The translations under genes were made by a program, and so were the position numbers. A DNA stretch of 64,000 nucleotides from the NCBI RefSeq assembly GCF_000378505.1, contig NZ_KB900002.1, forward strand, positions 10,564 to 74,563, written 5' to 3'. Below the pieces are notes generated by a model. The model was not told where the DNA came from, made no database searches, and saw only the letters and a program-made list of their open reading frames with translations. Origin of the DNA: Modicisalibacter luteus DSM 23508 (GTDB taxonomy: Bacteria > Pseudomonadota > Gammaproteobacteria > Pseudomonadales > Halomonadaceae). Positions 11,753-29,500 of this stretch are shown here, piece after piece. Position 1 is the first letter of the stretch. Every line of letters starts with the position of its first letter.

Positions 11753-11766
11753 TTGATCGTAATCAA
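11753..11766 (-). promoter_or_regulatory. Perfect FNR/ANR box, cytochrome c551 promoter
   Basis: TTGAT-cgta-ATCAA, all ten conserved positions. It lies between divergent c551 and hemN; hemN has its own box at 11846, so this one probably serves c551. Confidence 0.75.
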
Positions 11767-21239: not shown

Positions 21240-22235
21240 ATGGAACTCGTCTGTCCCGCAGGCAACTTGCCGGCGCTCAAGCGCGCCGTCGACGAAGGGG
21301 CGGATGCCGTCTACTTCGGCTTCCGCAATAACACCAACGCTCGCGGCTTCGCAGGGCTCAACTTCAGTGAAGGGCGCGCCGCGGAGGGTATCGAGTATGC
21401 TCATCGTCGCGACTGCCGGGTGTTCTGTGCGATCAACACCTACCCGCAGCCCGGCGGCTGGGCGCAGTGGTCGTCGGCTGTGGATCAAGCCGCCGAGCTG
21501 GGCGTCGATGCGTTGATCCTCGCCGACATGGGCCTGCTCGGCTATGCCGCGAGTCGCTATCCCGACCTGCCCCGGCATCTCTCGGTTCAAGGCTCGGCGA
21601 CCAGCTACGAGGCGCTACGCTTCTATCAGCGCGAGTTCGGCATCCGCCGCGCCGTGCTGCCCCGTGTACTCTCGCTCAATCAGGTTCGCGATGTGGCCCG
21701 CCACAGCCCGGTGGAACTCGAGGTATTCGCCTTCGGCAGCCTGTGCATCATGGCCGAGGGGCGCTGCTATCTGTCGTCCTATCTCACCGGAGGTTCGCCC
21801 AACACCCGCGGCGTCTGCTCGCCGGCGGCGCATGTGCGCTGGGAGCAGACCGACACAGGGCTGGAATCGCGCCTCAACGGCGTATTGATCGACCGGTATG
21901 CCGAGGGCGAGCGCGCCGGCTACCCGACGTTGTGCAAAGGGCGCTTCGAGGTTGCGGGTTCGACCTACCATGCCATCGAGGAGCCGACCAGCCTCAACAC
22001 GCTGGACCTGCTGCCCGAGTTGGCCGAGCTCGGCATCAGTGCGGTAAAGATCGAAGGTCGCCAACGCAGCCCTGCCTATGTCGCCCAAGTCGCCGCGGTG
22101 TGGCGCCAGGCGCTCGATTCCCTGACGCGTGACCGAGAGCGCTTTGCGCCGACGCCCGCCTGGCAGGCCCAGCTCGGTGCCCTGTCCGAAGGCACCACCA
22201 CCACATTAGGCGCCTACGAGCGTCGCTGGAAGTGA
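21240..22235 (+). CDS. ubiU: O2-independent ubiquinone hydroxylation protein UbiU (peptidase U32 family)
   Basis: 331 residues. UbiU and UbiV form a [4Fe-4S] complex that hydroxylates the quinone ring without oxygen, so denitrifying cells can make ubiquinone. U32 start MELVCPAGNLPALKRAVDEGADAVYFG and the LPRVLSLNQV motif are present. The four cluster ligands are C169 and C176 (FGSLCIMAEGRC), C193 (TRGVCSP) and C232 (PTLCKG), in the spacing of E. coli UbiU. Followed by ubiV with a 20-bp gap; behind an FNR-type promoter. Confidence 0.95.
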   Translation: MELVCPAGNLPALKRAVDEGADAVYFGFRNNTNARGFAGLNFSEGRAAEGIEYAHRRDCRVFCAINTYPQPGGWAQWSSAVDQAAELGVDALILADMGLLGYAASRYPDLPRHLSVQGSATSYEALRFYQREFGIRRAVLPRVLSLNQVRDVARHSPVELEVFAFGSLCIMAEGRCYLSSYLTGGSPNTRGVCSPAAHVRWEQTDTGLESRLNGVLIDRYAEGERAGYPTLCKGRFEVAGSTYHAIEEPTSLNTLDLLPELAELGISAVKIEGRQRSPAYVAQVAAVWRQALDSLTRDRERFAPTPAWQAQLGALSEGTTTTLGAYERRWK

Positions 22236-22255
22236 CCTTACGACGAGGAACCACC

Positions 22256-23164
22256 ATGCAACTCTCCCTGGGCCCGGTACAGTTCTACTGGGCACGCGAA
22301 CGTTATGCCGTATTCTACCGCGAGGCCGCTGATTGGCCGCTGGACATCGTCTATCTCGGCGAAACCGTCTGCTCACGGCGCCGCGACATGAAACTCGACG
22401 ACTGGCTGGGTATCGGCCGTGAGCTGCAAGAAGCCGGCAAGCAGGTCGTGCTCTCCAGCCAGACCCTGATCGAGTCCGAGGCCGACCTGCGAGGCCTGCG
22501 CAAGCTATGTGCTAACGGTGAGTTCACCATCGAGGCCAACGATCACAGCGCCCTGCAACGCGTGACTGAGGCCGGTCTGCCCTTCGTCGCAGGTCCGGCA
22601 CTGAATCTCTATAACCTCGCCTCACTGGACACGCTGACACGGCGCGGGCTCACACGCTGGTGCATGCCGGTGGAGTTGGCTCGCGATGCCTTGGCCACGC
22701 TACTGGATGAGCTCCAGGCCCGCAGTCTCGACGCCCCCTGCGAGGTCTTTGCCTATGGCCACCTGCCCCTGGCCTGGTCGGCACGCTGCTTCACCGCGCG
22801 CCACCACGACCTGCCCAAGGACCGCTGCCAGTTCGTCTGCCAGCAATATCCCGAAGGGTTGCCGCTGCGCTCGCAGGAATCGCGTGAGGTATTTACTCTC
22901 AACGGCATCCAGACCCTGTCCGGCGCCTGCTACGATTTGCGCCACGAGATCGACGACATGAGGCGCCTCGGCGTAGCCGTGGCACGCTTGAGCCCACGCG
23001 CCGAGGACATGGCCGAGGTCGTCAACGCCTTCGATAAGGCCCGCCGCGGCGAACTGCCTGCGCGCGACCCGCTGGTGCTGGTGGACGCCGAGACATGCGC
23101 TGGCTATTGGTACGGCCGGCCGGGCATGGACGCGGTCCAGGCCGAGGCGGGCCGCCTCGGCTAG
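22256..23164 (+). CDS. ubiV: O2-independent ubiquinone hydroxylation protein UbiV
   Basis: 302 residues from ATG 22256 (GACGAGGA 7 bp upstream); the open frame begins earlier at 22232, overlapping ubiU. Partner of UbiU. Cluster ligands C39 (GETVCSRRRDM), C178 (SARCFTA), C191 and C195 (DRCQFVCQQ) match UbiV. The protein lacks the peptidase catalytic features, as expected. Operon with ubiU. Confidence 0.93.
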   Translation: MQLSLGPVQFYWARERYAVFYREAADWPLDIVYLGETVCSRRRDMKLDDWLGIGRELQEAGKQVVLSSQTLIESEADLRGLRKLCANGEFTIEANDHSALQRVTEAGLPFVAGPALNLYNLASLDTLTRRGLTRWCMPVELARDALATLLDELQARSLDAPCEVFAYGHLPLAWSARCFTARHHDLPKDRCQFVCQQYPEGLPLRSQESREVFTLNGIQTLSGACYDLRHEIDDMRRLGVAVARLSPRAEDMAEVVNAFDKARRGELPARDPLVLVDAETCAGYWYGRPGMDAVQAEAGRLG

Positions 23165-23226
23165 AAGATGTGCATTTTGGAAAAGACAGGACAGGGCGGG
23201 TCGAAGATGGCCGAGCCACGGAGAGC

Positions 23227-24387
23227 TCAGAGCGTGACGCGCAGCCGAACCTGTGAGTAGCCACCGGCCGGAAAGCGTGCCCGTGTGGCCGGCTTCTCCA
23301 CAACGCTAGCGAGTTGACGGGTATGCTTGAGTAGCGCCTGCGTGAACAGTTGTAGTTCCATGCGCGCCAGGGGTGCCCCAGGGCAGACGTGAACGCCCGC
23401 ACCGTAGAGCAGGTTGAGGCTGGGATCGCGATCGAGCCGGAACTCATCCGGATCGCCGAATGCCGCCTCGTCGCGGTTGGCCGAGCCCCACAGCAGGGTC
23501 AGGCGTTGCCCGGCCTCGGTACGCCGTCCACCGATCTCCACCGGACAGGTAGTGACGCGCCGGTTGGACATCAGCGGGGCATCAATACGCAGGATCTCGT
23601 CGATGGCGGCGGGCAACAGTTCGGGCTCGCGACGCAACCGGGCCTGCACCTCGCCATGCTCGGCCAGGTAGCGCAGCAGGATGCCCACGCAGGCCGAGAT
23701 GGTGCCCAGCTCGCCCACCGTCCAGTTACGGATAATGCTGACCACCTCCTCGTCGGTCAGCGCTCGCCCGTCGACACGCTCGTTCATCAGCCGGGTGGTA
23801 ACGTCATCAGGGGCCAGCGCTCCGGCCAGGCGCCGCTCCGCCAGCAGACTGCGGATCACCCCGTCGAATTCCAGTGCCAGTCGACCCAGCGCCTCGCGAT
23901 CACCGGCCAGGGTCGCCGCCTGCTGGCGCTCCACCCAGGCCTGCATAGGTACGTGCAGCGCGTCCGGCCAGCCCATGAAGGCGCACTGCACACGAAGCGC
24001 GAACGGATGACCGAGCGCGGTCATGACCTCAAGCTCACCCTCAGCTGGTAGGCTATCGATCAGCTCCACAGCAATCTCGCGGCACAGCGGCTCGAAATCG
24101 CGCATGGGCCCCGGCGCGAAGTAGGGCTCTATCAGGCGTCGGAAACGGGTGTGCTCCGGCGGGTCCATGGCGTTGGGGATAGAGAGATGACGGCTGGCGG
24201 CGTTGCTGAACGTGGCGTGGTCCTCCAGTACGCGCTTCACGTCCTCGTGACGAAACAGGGACCACTGCAGGTAATCGCTGAAGGCGACCGGGCAACGCTG
24301 ACGCATCGCATCGTAGGCAGCCAGCTGGTCGTCGAGTACGGTGTCGGCTCGCGGATCCCAGTCCTGATGGGGGCAGTGCTTACTCAT
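23227..24387 (-). CDS. Cytochrome P450 with atypical I helix, behind an FNR-type box
   Basis: 386-residue soluble P450. The haem-binding loop is LLYGAGVHVCPGAPLAR with thiolate C335; the ExxR motif is in AIDEILRID, and the meander has DPDEFRLDR. The I helix reads NWTVGELGTISACVG: the Thr is present, but the acidic residue normally just before it (as in AGxD/ET) is Gly. Canonical O2-activating P450s need that acid; fungal NO reductase P450nor also lacks it. Ribosome site AAGGAG is good. It sits among anaerobic genes and an FNR-like box precedes it, so an NO-linked or electron-poor reaction is possible but unproven. Substrate unknown. Confidence 0.88.
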   Translation of the reverse strand: MSKHCPHQDWDPRADTVLDDQLAAYDAMRQRCPVAFSDYLQWSLFRHEDVKRVLEDHATFSNAASRHLSIPNAMDPPEHTRFRRLIEPYFAPGPMRDFEPLCREIAVELIDSLPAEGELEVMTALGHPFALRVQCAFMGWPDALHVPMQAWVERQQAATLAGDREALGRLALEFDGVIRSLLAERRLAGALAPDDVTTRLMNERVDGRALTDEEVVSIIRNWTVGELGTISACVGILLRYLAEHGEVQARLRREPELLPAAIDEILRIDAPLMSNRRVTTCPVEIGGRRTEAGQRLTLLWGSANRDEAAFGDPDEFRLDRDPSLNLLYGAGVHVCPGAPLARMELQLFTQALLKHTRQLASVVEKPATRARFPAGGYSQVRLRVTL

Positions 24388-24455
24388 GAGGTCTCCTTCC
24401 GGCGCTGGATCCGGGCATGCCGGCCCGGCGCCCTGTCTAGGCGTTCAGAGATTTC

Positions 24456-24497
24456 ATCAGACCAGAATGCGACCAAAGAAGCCTTGACTTAAATCAG
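24456..24497 (-). promoter_or_regulatory. Putative FNR-type promoter of the P450 gene
   Basis: Box TTGAC-ttaa-ATCAG (24484-24497, eight of ten conserved bases) and, 29.5 bp from its centre on the minus strand, TCTGAT (24461-24456) as a four-of-six -10. It starts about 70 bp before the gene's ATG. Confidence 0.5.
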
Positions 24498-24629
24498 GGC
24501 ACAGTCATGTAGTCCACAGCCAATGATGCGCTTCAGTCGCATTTTACTAACGAGGCTTGAGGGCACCACTTCGATAACAACGACGGGTTAACCCTTGGAC
24601 GATCTCAAATAGAAGAAACGGTTCATGGA

Positions 24630-25085
24630 TCAACGATTGGCCAAGCGTTCGAGGCGTAAGAGCCAATCGCCCAACCGTCCCTGGGCAATGCCTTCCTCAA
24701 GCCCGTCGAGCAGATTCTTGACCGTCAGCCCCAGTTCGGTATCCCCCTCGATGACCAGACGGCGCTGAAAGAACAGTCCGTCGGGGTCCTCGCGGCGCGT
24801 AGCCAGGCATAAAAACTCGCGCCAGCCACCCCAGATGACGACCTCGGGTGCCGCATCGACCAGTACCAGGCGAGAGCGCTCGACCGACAACCCAAGGGCA
24901 ATGCCCAGATCCTCGATGGCCAAGCCCACACGGCGCCCCTCGAGATCGTCGAACTCGCCCTCGGCCAAGGGTGCGGCATAGGCCCGGTTGAGCAGCGGCT
25001 CGACCAAGCATCGCTTGACGCTCAGTGGGACCCTGGGATCAAGCGTTCGCAGCAGCGACGACGGTGATGGCAACGGCAACGACAT
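24630..25085 (-). CDS. ubiT: UbiT, SCP2-domain lipid-binding factor of O2-independent ubiquinone synthesis
   Basis: 151 residues from ATG 25085 (MSLPLPSPSSLLRTL). UbiT binds quinone intermediates and works with UbiUV in the anaerobic pathway. The SCP2-like fold is seen in VPLSVKRCLVEPLLNRAYAAPLAEGEFDDLEGRRVGLAIEDLG split over strands and helices, then LVLVDAAPEVVIWGG, REDPDGLFFQRRLVIEGDTELGL and VKNLLDGLE. It is separated from ubiUV only by the P450 gene and is divergent from nrdD. Confidence 0.88.
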   Translation of the reverse strand: MSLPLPSPSSLLRTLDPRVPLSVKRCLVEPLLNRAYAAPLAEGEFDDLEGRRVGLAIEDLGIALGLSVERSRLVLVDAAPEVVIWGGWREFLCLATRREDPDGLFFQRRLVIEGDTELGLTVKNLLDGLEEGIAQGRLGDWLLRLERLANR

Positions 25086-25143
25086 GGCGGCTTTCCTCGC
25101 GATCAAATGGTGCCCATCGTGCCACCGGCCATCGCCACTCGGC

Positions 25144-25157
25144 ATGACATATATCAA
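25144..25157. promoter_or_regulatory. FNR-type box between ubiT and nrdD
   Basis: ATGAC-atat-ATCAA, eight of ten conserved bases, 65 bp before ubiT and 90 bp before nrdD. The -10 elements at the expected spacing are weak on both sides, so the direction cannot be settled. Confidence 0.5.
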
Positions 25158-25240: not shown

Positions 25241-26971
25241 ATGCCTGCTGATGCTGCCCCGCACCGACTCGACATTGCCGCCACGGTCGAGGAGTACCTG
25301 GACCGAGAAGACTGGCGCGTACAGGCCAATGCCAACCAGGGGTATTCGTTGGGCGGTCTGATTCTCAATGCCTCCGGCAAGCTGATCGCCAATTACTGGC
25401 TCGACCGGGTCTATACGCATGAAATGGGACAGGCGCATCGGCAGGGGGCTCTGCATATCCATGACCTCGACATGCTGTGCGGCTATTGTGCCGGCTGGTC
25501 GCTGCGCCAGTTACTGCTCGAAGGTTTCAATGGTGTCTCCGATCGTGCGGAGAGCGATCCGCCCAGACATCTGTCCAGCGCCCTGGGTCAGATGGTCAAT
25601 TTCCTGGGGACACTCCAGAACGAATGGGCCGGGGCGCAGGCATTCAGTTCCGTCGATACCTATCTCGCTCCGTTCGTGCGGCGCGATCGGCTGGATTATC
25701 CGGCCGTGCGCCAGGCCATGCAGGAATTCATCTATAACCTCAACGTACCCTCGCGCTGGGGCACGCAGACGCCATTCACCAACCTGACCTTCGACTGGGT
25801 CTGCCCCGAAGATTTACGCCAGCAGGTCCCGGTCATCGGCGACGAGGAGCAGCCCTTCACTTACGGCGATCTTCAGGCTGAGATGGACATGCTCAACCGG
25901 GCCTACCTGGAGGTCATGGAAGCGGGCGACCGCCAGGGTCGGGTATTCACCTTCCCGATCCCTACCTACAACATTACCCATGACTTCGACTGGGACAGTG
26001 CCAACGCCGAGCGCCTTTTCGCGCTGACTGCCAAGTACGGTCTGCCCTACTTCCAGAACTTTCTCAATTCGGATCTCGAGCCGCACATGGTGCGCTCGAT
26101 GTGCTGTCGCCTGCAGCTCGATGTCAGCGAGCTGCTCAAGCGTGGCAACGGCCTGTTCGGCTCCGCCGAGCAAACCGGGTCACTGGGCGTAGTGACGATC
26201 AACTGTGCCCGGCTGGGCTATCGCTTTGCCGATGACCCGGCCGGTCTTTGCCGTGAACTGGACCGTCTGCTCGATCTGGCCCGCGACAGTCTGGAGATCA
26301 AGCGCGGGGTCATTCAGCAGTGGATGGATGAAGGGCTTTACCCGTACACCCGGCGCTATCTGGGTACGCTGCACAACCATTTCTCGACCGTCGGCGTGAA
26401 CGGCCTCAACGAGATGGTGCGCAACATCACACGCGACCGGATCGACATCGCCGATGACGAGGGCCGCGACATGGCACTGGCCCTCCTCGATCATGTTCGT
26501 GCCCGGCTGCGTGAATTCCAGGAGAGCACCGGTCATCTCTATAACCTTGAGGCGACACCTGCAGAGGGCACCACCTACCGCTTTGCCAAGGAAGATGCCA
26601 AGCGTTTCCCCGGCATTCTCCAGGCCGGTAGCGCCGAAGCACCCTATTACACCAATTCCAGCCAGTTGCCGGTTGGCCATACCGACGATCCATTCGCGGC
26701 GCTGATCCACCAGGACCCGCTGCAGACACGCTACACCGGCGGTACCGTGTTGCACCTGTACATGCGTGAGCGCCTCTCCAGTGCGCACTCCTGCAAGCAA
26801 CTGGTACGCACCGCGCTGTCGCGCTTCCGGCTGCCCTACCTGACGATCACGCCAACCTTCTCGATCTGCCCGGTGCATGGCTACCTGGCCGGAGAACACG
26901 AATTCTGCCCGCGGTGCGACGACGTACTGCTGGCACAACGGGCCTCGGCCTGCACCGAAGCGGCATGCTGA
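25241..26971 (+). CDS. nrdD: Class III anaerobic ribonucleotide reductase, catalytic part lacking the glycyl-radical domain
   Basis: 576 residues. NrdD reduces ribonucleoside triphosphates under anoxia using a glycyl radical. The barrel is well conserved (HIHDLDMLCGYCAGWSLR, PSRWGTQTPFTNLTFDW, FTFPIPTYNIT, SLGVVTINCARLGY with the active-site Cys, HNHFSTVGVNGLNEM, YTNSSQLPVG). The Zn-type finger ICPVHGYLAGEHEFCPRC is near the end, but the protein stops soon after it and lacks the RVxGY radical site. That sequence is encoded by the next ORF in another frame with its own ribosome site, so the enzyme is split. Confidence 0.93.
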   Translation: MPADAAPHRLDIAATVEEYLDREDWRVQANANQGYSLGGLILNASGKLIANYWLDRVYTHEMGQAHRQGALHIHDLDMLCGYCAGWSLRQLLLEGFNGVSDRAESDPPRHLSSALGQMVNFLGTLQNEWAGAQAFSSVDTYLAPFVRRDRLDYPAVRQAMQEFIYNLNVPSRWGTQTPFTNLTFDWVCPEDLRQQVPVIGDEEQPFTYGDLQAEMDMLNRAYLEVMEAGDRQGRVFTFPIPTYNITHDFDWDSANAERLFALTAKYGLPYFQNFLNSDLEPHMVRSMCCRLQLDVSELLKRGNGLFGSAEQTGSLGVVTINCARLGYRFADDPAGLCRELDRLLDLARDSLEIKRGVIQQWMDEGLYPYTRRYLGTLHNHFSTVGVNGLNEMVRNITRDRIDIADDEGRDMALALLDHVRARLREFQESTGHLYNLEATPAEGTTYRFAKEDAKRFPGILQAGSAEAPYYTNSSQLPVGHTDDPFAALIHQDPLQTRYTGGTVLHLYMRERLSSAHSCKQLVRTALSRFRLPYLTITPTFSICPVHGYLAGEHEFCPRCDDVLLAQRASACTEAAC

Positions 26972-27000
26972 GCCTTTTCACCCAAGCAAGGAGAATCATC

Positions 27001-27186
27001 ATGACGGCTTTTGCCGATATCGATCGTAACGCCCTGCCCAGCGAAGTTCGCCAGCGCTGTGAGGTCTGGACCCGCGTGATGGGCTATCACCGTCCGGTCA
27101 GCCAGTTCAATCCGGGCAAGCGTGCCGAACACCAGGATCGACGCCACTTCGAGGAAGCCCTCGCCATGCAGGTCGGCCAGGGATAA
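27001..27186 (+). CDS. Separate glycyl-radical domain of anaerobic ribonucleotide reductase
   Basis: 61 residues from ATG 27001, with AAGGAG 7-8 bp upstream and only 29 bp after nrdD. CEVWTRVMGYHRPVSQFNPG is the glycyl-radical loop of NrdD, with G28 as the expected radical site, followed by KRAEHQDRRHFEE, the usual C-terminal end. It is in a different frame from nrdD (offset by two), and has an independent start and good ribosome site, so it looks like a designed small subunit comparable in logic to YfiD/GrcA for pyruvate formate-lyase. A frameshifted fusion is the alternative, but there is no open continuation between the two. Confidence 0.82.
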   Translation: MTAFADIDRNALPSEVRQRCEVWTRVMGYHRPVSQFNPGKRAEHQDRRHFEEALAMQVGQG

Positions 27187-27218: not shown

Positions 27219-27234
27219 TCCAGGAGACATGACC

Positions 27235-27979: not shown

Positions 27980-29500
27980 CTACTTGATGCCCAACCGGCG
28001 CGCCAGCTTGTGAAGATTGCTCGAATCGACCTCGAGTAGCCGCGCCGCTGCCGACCAGTTGCCGTCGGCGCGCTCGAGGGCATGATGGATGGCTTGGCGT
28101 TGGCTGCGCGCCACGCTGTCGTGCAGTGCTTCCACCGGAGCGTCCCGGGATGGCGTCACCGTCACGTCCGGGGCGGTAGAAGCGGTCAGCGGTAGATCGA
28201 GCAGTCCAGGCTCCAACGTGACAATGTCCTCGCGGCGCGCGCCGTGGCTGAGCGCCTTGATCGCCGCCCGGCTGATGACGTGTTCGAGTTCGCGCACGTT
28301 GCCCGGCCAGTCGTAGCCACTCAGCACATTTTCTGCGGCCGGTGACAGCCGCAAACTACGCACCCCCAGGCGGGCCCGGTTGAGCTCGAGGAAATGCCCG
28401 GCCAGCACCAGTACGTCGCTGCCCCGCTCGCGCAGCGGCGGGATCGGTACCGGATAGACCGAGAGCCGGTGATAGAGGTCGGCGCGAAAGTGCCCGGCAC
28501 GCACGCTGTCATGCAGGTTGCGGTTGGTGGCGGCAATTATCCGAACATCGACGTGGCGCGGCTCATCCTCGCCCAGGCGTTGAATTTCACCATTCTGCAG
28601 CGTGCGCAGCAGCTTGGCCTGGATGGACAGCGGTAGTTCGCCGACCTCGTCCAGGAACAGCGTTCCGCCGTCAGCCGCCTCGAAGCGCCCGGCACGGGCA
28701 TTGCCCGCCCCTGAGAAAGCCCCCTTCACATGGCCGAACAGCTCGCTCTCGGCCAGCGACTCCGGCAACGCTGCGCAGTTGACCTGAATCAGCGGGCGCC
28801 GCCGACGCTGCGAATTCTGGTAAAGATGACGGGCGAACAGTTCCTTGCCGACGCCGGTCTCTCCGGTGAGCAGTACGGGCAGTTCGGAATCCGCCACCAC
28901 CTTGAGCTCATCTAGCAACTGACGAATGGTTGAGCTCTGACCAATGATCTCGTCCTCCTGACGTTCACGGATATCCCTGGCAGTATCGCTTCGCGCCAGG
29001 CGCAGGCGACACACGTCCTGCTCCAGGCGAGTCATGCGCACGGCGGCCTCGGCCAGCAGGGTGAAACGTTGCAGGTCGTCCTGCGCACGCTCATCGAAGG
29101 TGCCGGGTGTGAGCGCATCCAGGGTTAGTGCCCCCCACAAGCTACCTTCGATATGCAGGCTGATGCCCATGCAATCGTGTACCGGCAAGGGGTCGCCGAC
29201 ATGATTGCCGACCAACCCATCGTAGGGGTCGGGCAGGGATGAGTCGGGCGGGAAGGCCACCGTCTCGCGGCGGGCAAGAATCGCCGCCAGACGCGGGTGC
29301 TGGGCTACCACGAAACGTCGCCCCAGCGCCTCGCGCACCAGCCCATCGACCGCCACCGGACACAGCGCATCGCCATCGAGGCGCAGCAGCCCCACCGCGC
29401 CACAGCGAAAGTACTCACGCAGGGTTCTGACCAGCCGCTGTAGACGTACTGCACTGGGCAGTTCGGCGGTGAGATCGGCAAGCACGACATCTTCCAGCAT
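27980..29500 (-). CDS. norR: NO-responsive sigma-54 activator NorR
   Basis: 506 residues: an N-terminal GAF domain with a mononuclear-iron NO sensor (about 1-165, conserved [10 protein letters not shown]), AAA+ domain with Walker A GETGVGKE and Walker [13 protein letters not shown], and a Fis-type helix-turn-helix at the C terminus ([24 protein letters not shown]). The sigma-54 contacting loop reads GAFSGA instead of the usual GAFTGA. Divergent from ytfE-norZ, with NorR sites and a sigma-54 promoter between them. It converges with nrdG, 19 bp apart. Confidence 0.95.

Follow-up and report, generated by a model that had tools for sequence, protein, structure and literature searches.

A putative two-subunit class III ribonucleotide reductase with its glycyl-radical domain on a separate small protein

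In the accessible portions of the literature that we surveyed, glycyl-radical enzymes carry the radical within their catalytic chain, with YfiD of pyruvate formate-lyase (PFL) as the validated exception. A locus in the genome of Modicisalibacter luteus DSM 23508 raises the question of whether a class III ribonucleotide reductase (RNR) can carry it on a second polypeptide. In the 64,000-nucleotide stretch that was analyzed (hereafter, the window), a headless nrdD, that is, one lacking the C-terminal glycyl-radical loop, is followed by a small gene encoding a glycyl-radical domain (GRD) and by nrdG (Table 1). We propose, with a probability of roughly 0.87, that these three genes encode a two-subunit class III RNR and its activase, with the radical placed on the small, dissociable subunit.

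Table 1. Features of the nrdD locus, in window coordinates.
Feature	Position	Strand	Basis or remark
Anr/Dnr-like box ATGACATATATCAA, 2 mismatches to TTGATNNNNATCAA	25144..25157	+	83 bp upstream of nrdD
nrdD, headless catalytic subunit, 576 aa	25241..26971	+	ORF, profile matches, fold match
Gap of 29 bp with Shine-Dalgarno AAGGAG at 26988-26993	26972..27000	+	
Small subunit, 61-aa GRD; radical Gly28 by homology, Cys20	27001..27186	+	ORF, profile match, alignment
Shine-Dalgarno AGGAG of nrdG	27222..27226	+	
nrdG, radical SAM activase, NrdG2 type, 243 aa	27229..27960	+	TIGR02495

The preliminary description had reported an NrdD that ends after a zinc-type finger without RVxGY and, after a short gap, an ORF in a different frame with a good ribosome site; both ORFs were recovered as claimed, the large one stopping after the zinc-ribbon motif CPVHGYLAGEHEFCPRCD and the small one containing RCEVWTRVMGYHRPVSQFNPGKRAEH. 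It had also taken the pair for a class III RNR with its GRD on a separate protein, and the profile searches agree, in that a single family is divided between the two ORFs. Among the 562 positions of Pfam NRDD (PF13597), the large ORF spans 2–531 (E 7e-168) and the small ORF covers 531–562 (E 8e-9, above the curated cut-off), NRDD being the only Pfam family that the small ORF matched. NCBIfam PRK08270 (684 positions) is divided alike, with 98–651 on the large and 647–683 on the small protein; the missing 97 N-terminal positions of this model are presumably the ATP-cone region.

Residues expected of a catalytic subunit are present in the large protein. Its finger loop MCCR (Cys288/Cys289) aligns with SCCR of Thermotoga maritima NrdD, and C83 of the barrel, C288 and C289, together with C543, H546, C556 and C559 of the Zn ribbon, are invariant across 39 aligned homologue rows; by homology, we assign these residues putative active-site and ligand roles. 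An AlphaFold2 model of the large subunit (mean pLDDT 72.7, pTM 0.75) was compared with the PDB, where the first 36 matches were all class III RNRs. Gly28 of the small protein aligns weakly (E 0.38) with residue 621 of T. maritima NrdD (4coi), given as the radical site in the accessible text of PMC4493059.

The surrounding genome is consistent with a division of labor between these two ORFs. The genome search returned one NrdD and one GRD; a second complete or otherwise intact NrdD, which the preliminary description had named as counting against its reading, was not found in that search, nor did the PFL-type Gly_radical domain (PF01228) match the small ORF or anything else in the genome. The cognate activase is present, since the product of nrdG scored 184.7 bits against TIGR02495 (cut-off 131.15). 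Class Ia, class Ib and B12-dependent class II reductases are also encoded, so the split class III enzyme need not be essential. The Anr/Dnr-like box upstream of nrdD is a weak site, such matches numbering 39 across the window against 13.8 expected; two exact boxes lie at 11753 and 20640. A scan for sigma-70 promoters and terminators found nothing. By Pfam, the neighbors of nrdD (22232–25157 and 27980–29500) include a U32 peptidase-family gene, a P450, an SCP2-domain gene and a GAF/sigma-54 regulator, among which we presume UbiV, UbiT and NorR.

A search for the split in close relatives covered 105 fetched loci, four of which were left out: L022 and L023 (<60% identity), L024 (no match at threshold) and L025 (a fragment of a counted gene). 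At an identity of at least 60%, 99 of the 101 homologous loci are split, so that the other outcome named as refuting in the preliminary description, an nrdD fused in all close relatives, did not occur. The remaining two are a fused gene in Pseudomonas sp. H9 (L056) and a locus of P. lini at a contig end (L059); we rejected the latter as an exception, because its two pieces sit terminally on two different contigs, as a break in the assembly would leave them. Several genomes had been fetched in duplicate, and 93 distinct large genes remain once the duplicates are removed. Downstream of the GRD, on the same strand, nrdG follows in 98 of the 99 split loci, with an estimated median gap of 1 nt; at the exception (L077) the contig ends before nrdG would be reached. 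The small gene belongs with nrdG: in one genome (G657) the large gene lies 9 kb away and the GRD directly precedes nrdG. The R, V, M, G and Y of the radical loop are kept in 99/99 split GRDs, a count partly demanded by the search pattern. Equally invariant in these proteins is Cys20 (27058–27060), located eight residues before Gly28 and directly before E-V-W, with an equivalent in 59/60 phage cores, and the bacterial GRD core has a median dN/dS of 0.20. Two headless NrdDs (L042, L064) continue past the Zn ribbon for ~90 further residues, in which A, P and V are abundant. In the window's own genus, one nrdD (G005:C5:253979-255672; L016, L025) is apparently broken by a frame change near residue 67, and L047 is similar.

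Headless genes and separate GRDs also occur together beyond this circle. NRDD matches were found in 28 of 274 genomes of a class-level sample: 20 have the split form and 6 a fused gene, and 2 yielded fragments. Each of the 20 headless genes is accompanied by a GRD at another place in its genome, and conversely none of the 20 genomes with a separate GRD lacks a headless gene. A phylum-level sample gave matches in 57 of 398 genomes, tabulated as 12 split, 41 full-length in one stretch and 1 fragment, with co-occurrence again complete in both directions (12/12). One more genome of this sample (G559) is split, its GRD lying in frame behind two stops, and in two others (G642, G706) both parts occupy one open frame. 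With a GRD model, 36 of 369 class genomes gave a match, a count that takes in genomes with fused NrdDs. Matches in G304 and G342 look like chance and were set aside, and the one in G890 belongs to a fused NrdD that shares 51% identity with the NrdD of the window. Eight further genomes with a match were checked for NRDD: seven have both parts, and the eighth, G242, showed nothing over threshold. Its contig ends inside a partial GRD that has the first nrdD codons directly upstream; we attribute this to a deletion or to faulty assembly and do not take it as a clear example of a GRD without NrdD. At this locus (L306, G242:C142:4500-7498), nrdA and nrdB precede the first nrdD codons, which run straight into the GRD at the contig end.

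Split pairs were also found in Bradyrhizobium (Alphaproteobacteria), on plasmid pHG1 of Cupriavidus necator (Betaproteobacteria) and in Sulfuricurvum (Campylobacterota), where NCBI labels both parts as reductase. The accessible text of PMC2864759, citing Siedow 1999, states that C. necator H16 cannot complete denitrification without NrdDG; the NrdD of this strain, on pHG1, is headless, and this statement and the headless gene together indicate in vivo use of a split enzyme. For C. metallidurans the same text gives NrdDG as Rmet_5137 and Rmet_5139, and we suppose that the gene between them is a candidate GRD. On a Bradyrhizobium japonicum plasmid (NZ_CP126016.1, 48579–51600), the nrdD match lies in two pieces around an annotated ISRj2 transposase.

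The two parts are joined naturally in Pseudomonas sp. H9 (L056), where they form one plain ORF, in Acidiphilium multivorum (L175) and in Actinomyces oris (L174). All three proteins retain the Cys directly before E-V-W that split GRDs have, and they look like re-fusions; five other fused proteins (L106, L123, L177, L107, L169) have an ordinary junction without this Cys. A Cys occupies this position in the fused NrdD of G890 as well, so the residue is not exclusive to split forms. A tree, drawn with a midpoint root and accompanied by long-branch warnings, set 84 rows (77 scored as split, 4 fused, and 3 unscored but split on inspection) against three fused outgroups with a support of 100. In an AlphaFold model of the L056 fusion, GRD residues 551–615 have pLDDT <50 and are unplaced, which gives docking no modelling support.

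Three other explanations of the locus were weighed against a separate GRD. It is hardly credible that the split here arose from an ordinary fused nrdD through an error in sequencing or a recent frameshift. A split in one genome beside a fused family would look alike, and fused NrdDs do occur in 6 of the 28 class genomes with a match, but nearly all close relatives are split, with varied gaps and frames and an ATG at the start of 95 of the 99 small ORFs (90/93 among distinct genes), and NCBI annotates both pieces in complete plasmids. Joining of the two ORFs at expression into one polypeptide, by programmed frameshifting, stop read-through or splicing, could draw on the overlaps of up to 32 nt at some loci, on the 24 of 99 loci with both ORFs in the same frame, and on the G559 GRD in frame behind two stops. 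The gaps nevertheless range from −32 to 321 nt and all three frames are used (45/30/24, or 44/27/22 among distinct genes), a pattern that general use of read-through or frameshifting would not readily produce. The small ORFs also appear equipped for their own translation: a 5-nt Shine-Dalgarno match is the commonest (66/99), and matches of at least 4 nt precede 92 of 93 small ORFs compared with 534 of 4650 random positions, a comparison biased by the fact that starts were chosen partly by that score. With the two genes 9 kb apart in G657, and the L056 fusion a plain ORF, we regard joining as very improbable. Only slightly less improbable is the idea that the large protein works without a GRD, or is a relic, while the small one does another job such as regulating NrdG. 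The constancy with which the small gene stays with nrdG and not with the large gene would fit this, yet the radical loop is kept in every split GRD, within the limit set by the search pattern, the catalytic Cys residues are kept in the large protein, and co-occurrence and the natural fusions tie the two together. Taken as sequence evidence, co-occurrence, variable frame and gap, natural fusions and conservation strongly support a separate GRD, and on the same footing the split is maintained in a large clade.

How the proposed two-subunit enzyme might operate can be sketched from fused NrdDs. The Zn ribbon, the catalytic barrel and the finger loop that bears the thiyl radical would come from the large subunit, and the RVMGY loop of the 61-residue subunit would insert into the barrel at the place taken by the C-terminal loop in fused NrdDs. 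NrdG would abstract hydrogen from Gly28, and the resulting glycyl radical would generate the active-site thiyl radical as in fused enzymes. More speculatively, oxygen cleavage at the glycine might destroy a replaceable 7-kDa subunit and not the 65–77-kDa reductase, the damaged subunit then being exchanged; sparing the reductase in this manner would be the most plausible advantage of the split.

The system can be compared with several known ones. Canonical class III NrdDs (T. maritima 4coi/4u3e, T4 1h78, Prevotella copri 8p23) belong to the same Pfam family and match in fold, and they share the Zn ribbon, finger-loop Cys, RVxGY loop and adjoining NrdG; the window's system differs in placing the GRD on its own polypeptide, usually with an extra Cys eight residues before the glycine, and its NrdD does not cover the first 97 positions of the PRK08270 model. 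YfiD/GrcA and phage T4 Y06I are likewise short stand-alone glycyl-radical proteins, one of them thus a phage version, and according to the accessible text of PMC8683613 they act by inserting into a barrel that lacks its own glycine or has had it cut. The preliminary description had likened the small protein to YfiD/GrcA. For this genome the likeness fails, as the sequence is of NRDD type and not PFL type and, there being no intact NrdD to repair or back up, the protein would be an obligate subunit and not a spare; the stand-alone copies on viruses and plasmids considered below come closer to it. NrdJab of Pseudomonas aeruginosa is another RNR made of two polypeptides (PMC4860495, accessible text). 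It differs in being a B12-dependent class II enzyme. We also take it that the cut in NrdJab does not set apart a radical-bearing domain.

Our literature search, beyond the reach of which most subscription papers lay, returned in the accessible texts no description of a separate GRD gene for a class III NrdD; Wei 2014 (Neisseria bacilliformis NrdD) and Siedow 1999, either of which may mention the split, were outside its scope. The accessible part of PMC3653736 deals with split phage nrdD genes, interrupted by mobile elements or unknown processes, and not with a stand-alone GRD. Class III RNRs are encoded as two chains in a large clade that includes Halomonas, Pseudomonas, Achromobacter and Cupriavidus species, and, if the proposed arrangement is correct, expression of nrdD and nrdG alone, as the usual name nrdDG implies, would omit the radical subunit. 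The clade would also offer a natural system for glycyl-radical docking, activation and oxygen repair in trans.

Stand-alone GRDs were found on mobile elements as well. Over 49 named genomes (49 loci out of a set of 80 fetched), the GRD model found one copy in 48 and three in Allochromatium humboldtianum; one of its two additional copies is on a contig resembling a plasmid (L212), the other next to phage-like genes, an M15 peptidase among them (L213). A second copy in G361 lies beside a RecT gene and, by eye, an ssb-like gene. A GRD match was recorded for 29 plasmid records, and two of these (A. tepidum pAt1 and A. vinosum pALVIN01) do not appear in the list of plasmids that carry a split-type NrdD. 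A scan of IMG/VR yielded 193 confirmed relatives, the best 80 of which were analyzed. Relatives of the window NrdD and NrdG were absent by tblastn from 80/80 of these best viral loci, within at most 10 kb on each side, and each of the 50 records searched whole with PF13597 gave one match, at the GRD end of the profile; many of these records are fragments, so that the absence applies to the record and not necessarily to the whole virus. Eighteen neighbor proteins were tested on 12 viral contigs, 8 of which carry phage-type genes (tape measure, tail fibre, portal, terminase, virion, DNA polymerase/clamp loader, replication initiation) and 4 of which do not. The PHROG family phrog_4132, annotated as of unknown function, matched 9/9 GRDs tested (the window's and 8 from phages), which suggests a likely role for this phage family. 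Its C-terminal part (about positions 115–162 of 179) corresponds to the window GRD, from which it differs in a longer N-terminal region and the lack of a functional annotation.

We think it somewhat better than an even chance that class III RNR is widely modular, with a small exchangeable GRD that various phages, an archaeal virus and certain plasmids carry alone as a trans-acting spare part or booster for the host NrdD, the viral and plasmid copies being possibly the same subunit supplied in trans. Conversely, viral GRDs might be inhibitors or decoys of the host RNR or NrdG: they occur alone, without reductase or activase, and a competing GRD could titrate NrdG or the barrel. We consider this unlikely, though it deserves appreciable weight, and several findings count against it. 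The radical motif is intact in 79 of the best 80 viral GRDs, and whereas conservation within the search patterns VMGYHRP and R[QT][RP]CE[VI]WT is partly due to the choice of matches, N20, K23, E26 and R30 (core numbering from 0) lie outside them and are kept in 60/60 distinct viral cores. For the viral core, 263 pairs give a dN/dS of 0.27; for the 20 codons that the patterns do not cover, the value is 0.49, and 231 of 243 pairs fall below 1. Four GRD genes (L243, L237, L274, L164) adjoin replication or recombination genes, and phage T4 carries an activating spare part for PFL, the only enzyme for which spare parts have been validated according to the accessible text of PMC8683613, whose authors think them possible for other glycyl-radical enzymes. 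If the spare-part reading is true, the viral GRD would be the RNR counterpart of T4 Y06I, a very small metabolic gene acting on host dNTP synthesis, and a gene of roughly 150–430 bp would enable a virus to restore or increase anaerobic dNTP synthesis.

The odds of this spare-part reading rose marginally with ANMV-1, a virus of methane-seep archaea that is apparently complete (PMC4372165, accessible text). The same source takes its 'nrdD' for an oxygen-sensitive ribonucleotide reductase. This gene (AJP62049; L313, KP703175.1, 25525–25959) encodes 144 residues that match NRDD positions 519–562 only; we thereby rejected its reading as a reductase gene, and the published inference of a complete viral RNR needs revision. 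As a stand-alone GRD it resembles the window's small protein, from which it differs in its archaeal-virus origin and in a sequence nearer to fused NrdDs (SRIVGYLRPVNQWNKGK), and it has Cys pairs before the GRD. None of the other features among the 69 in the ANMV-1 record is annotated as RNR or activase. A tblastn search of this genome with six NrdDs of different types found only the GRD (E up to 0.01 for five of them), and the window NrdD and NrdG gave nothing better than E 0.03. The protein did not match phrog_4132. It had emerged from a tblastn search of 50,697 named-phage records with the window GRD and three phage GRDs, which otherwise yielded matches inside reductase genes and weak matches; those to Gordonia phage Gmala1 and phage PKM.Lu.22.1 lack the GRD motif and were discarded. 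Nine phage GRDs (L217, L226, L228, L229, L230, L231, L234, L260, L292), joined by eye by L219, L220 and L246, carry a segment rich in Cys at the N-terminus (C-x-H ... GR..P..C..C), possibly a mini zinc finger that replaces or mimics the Zn ribbon of NrdD.
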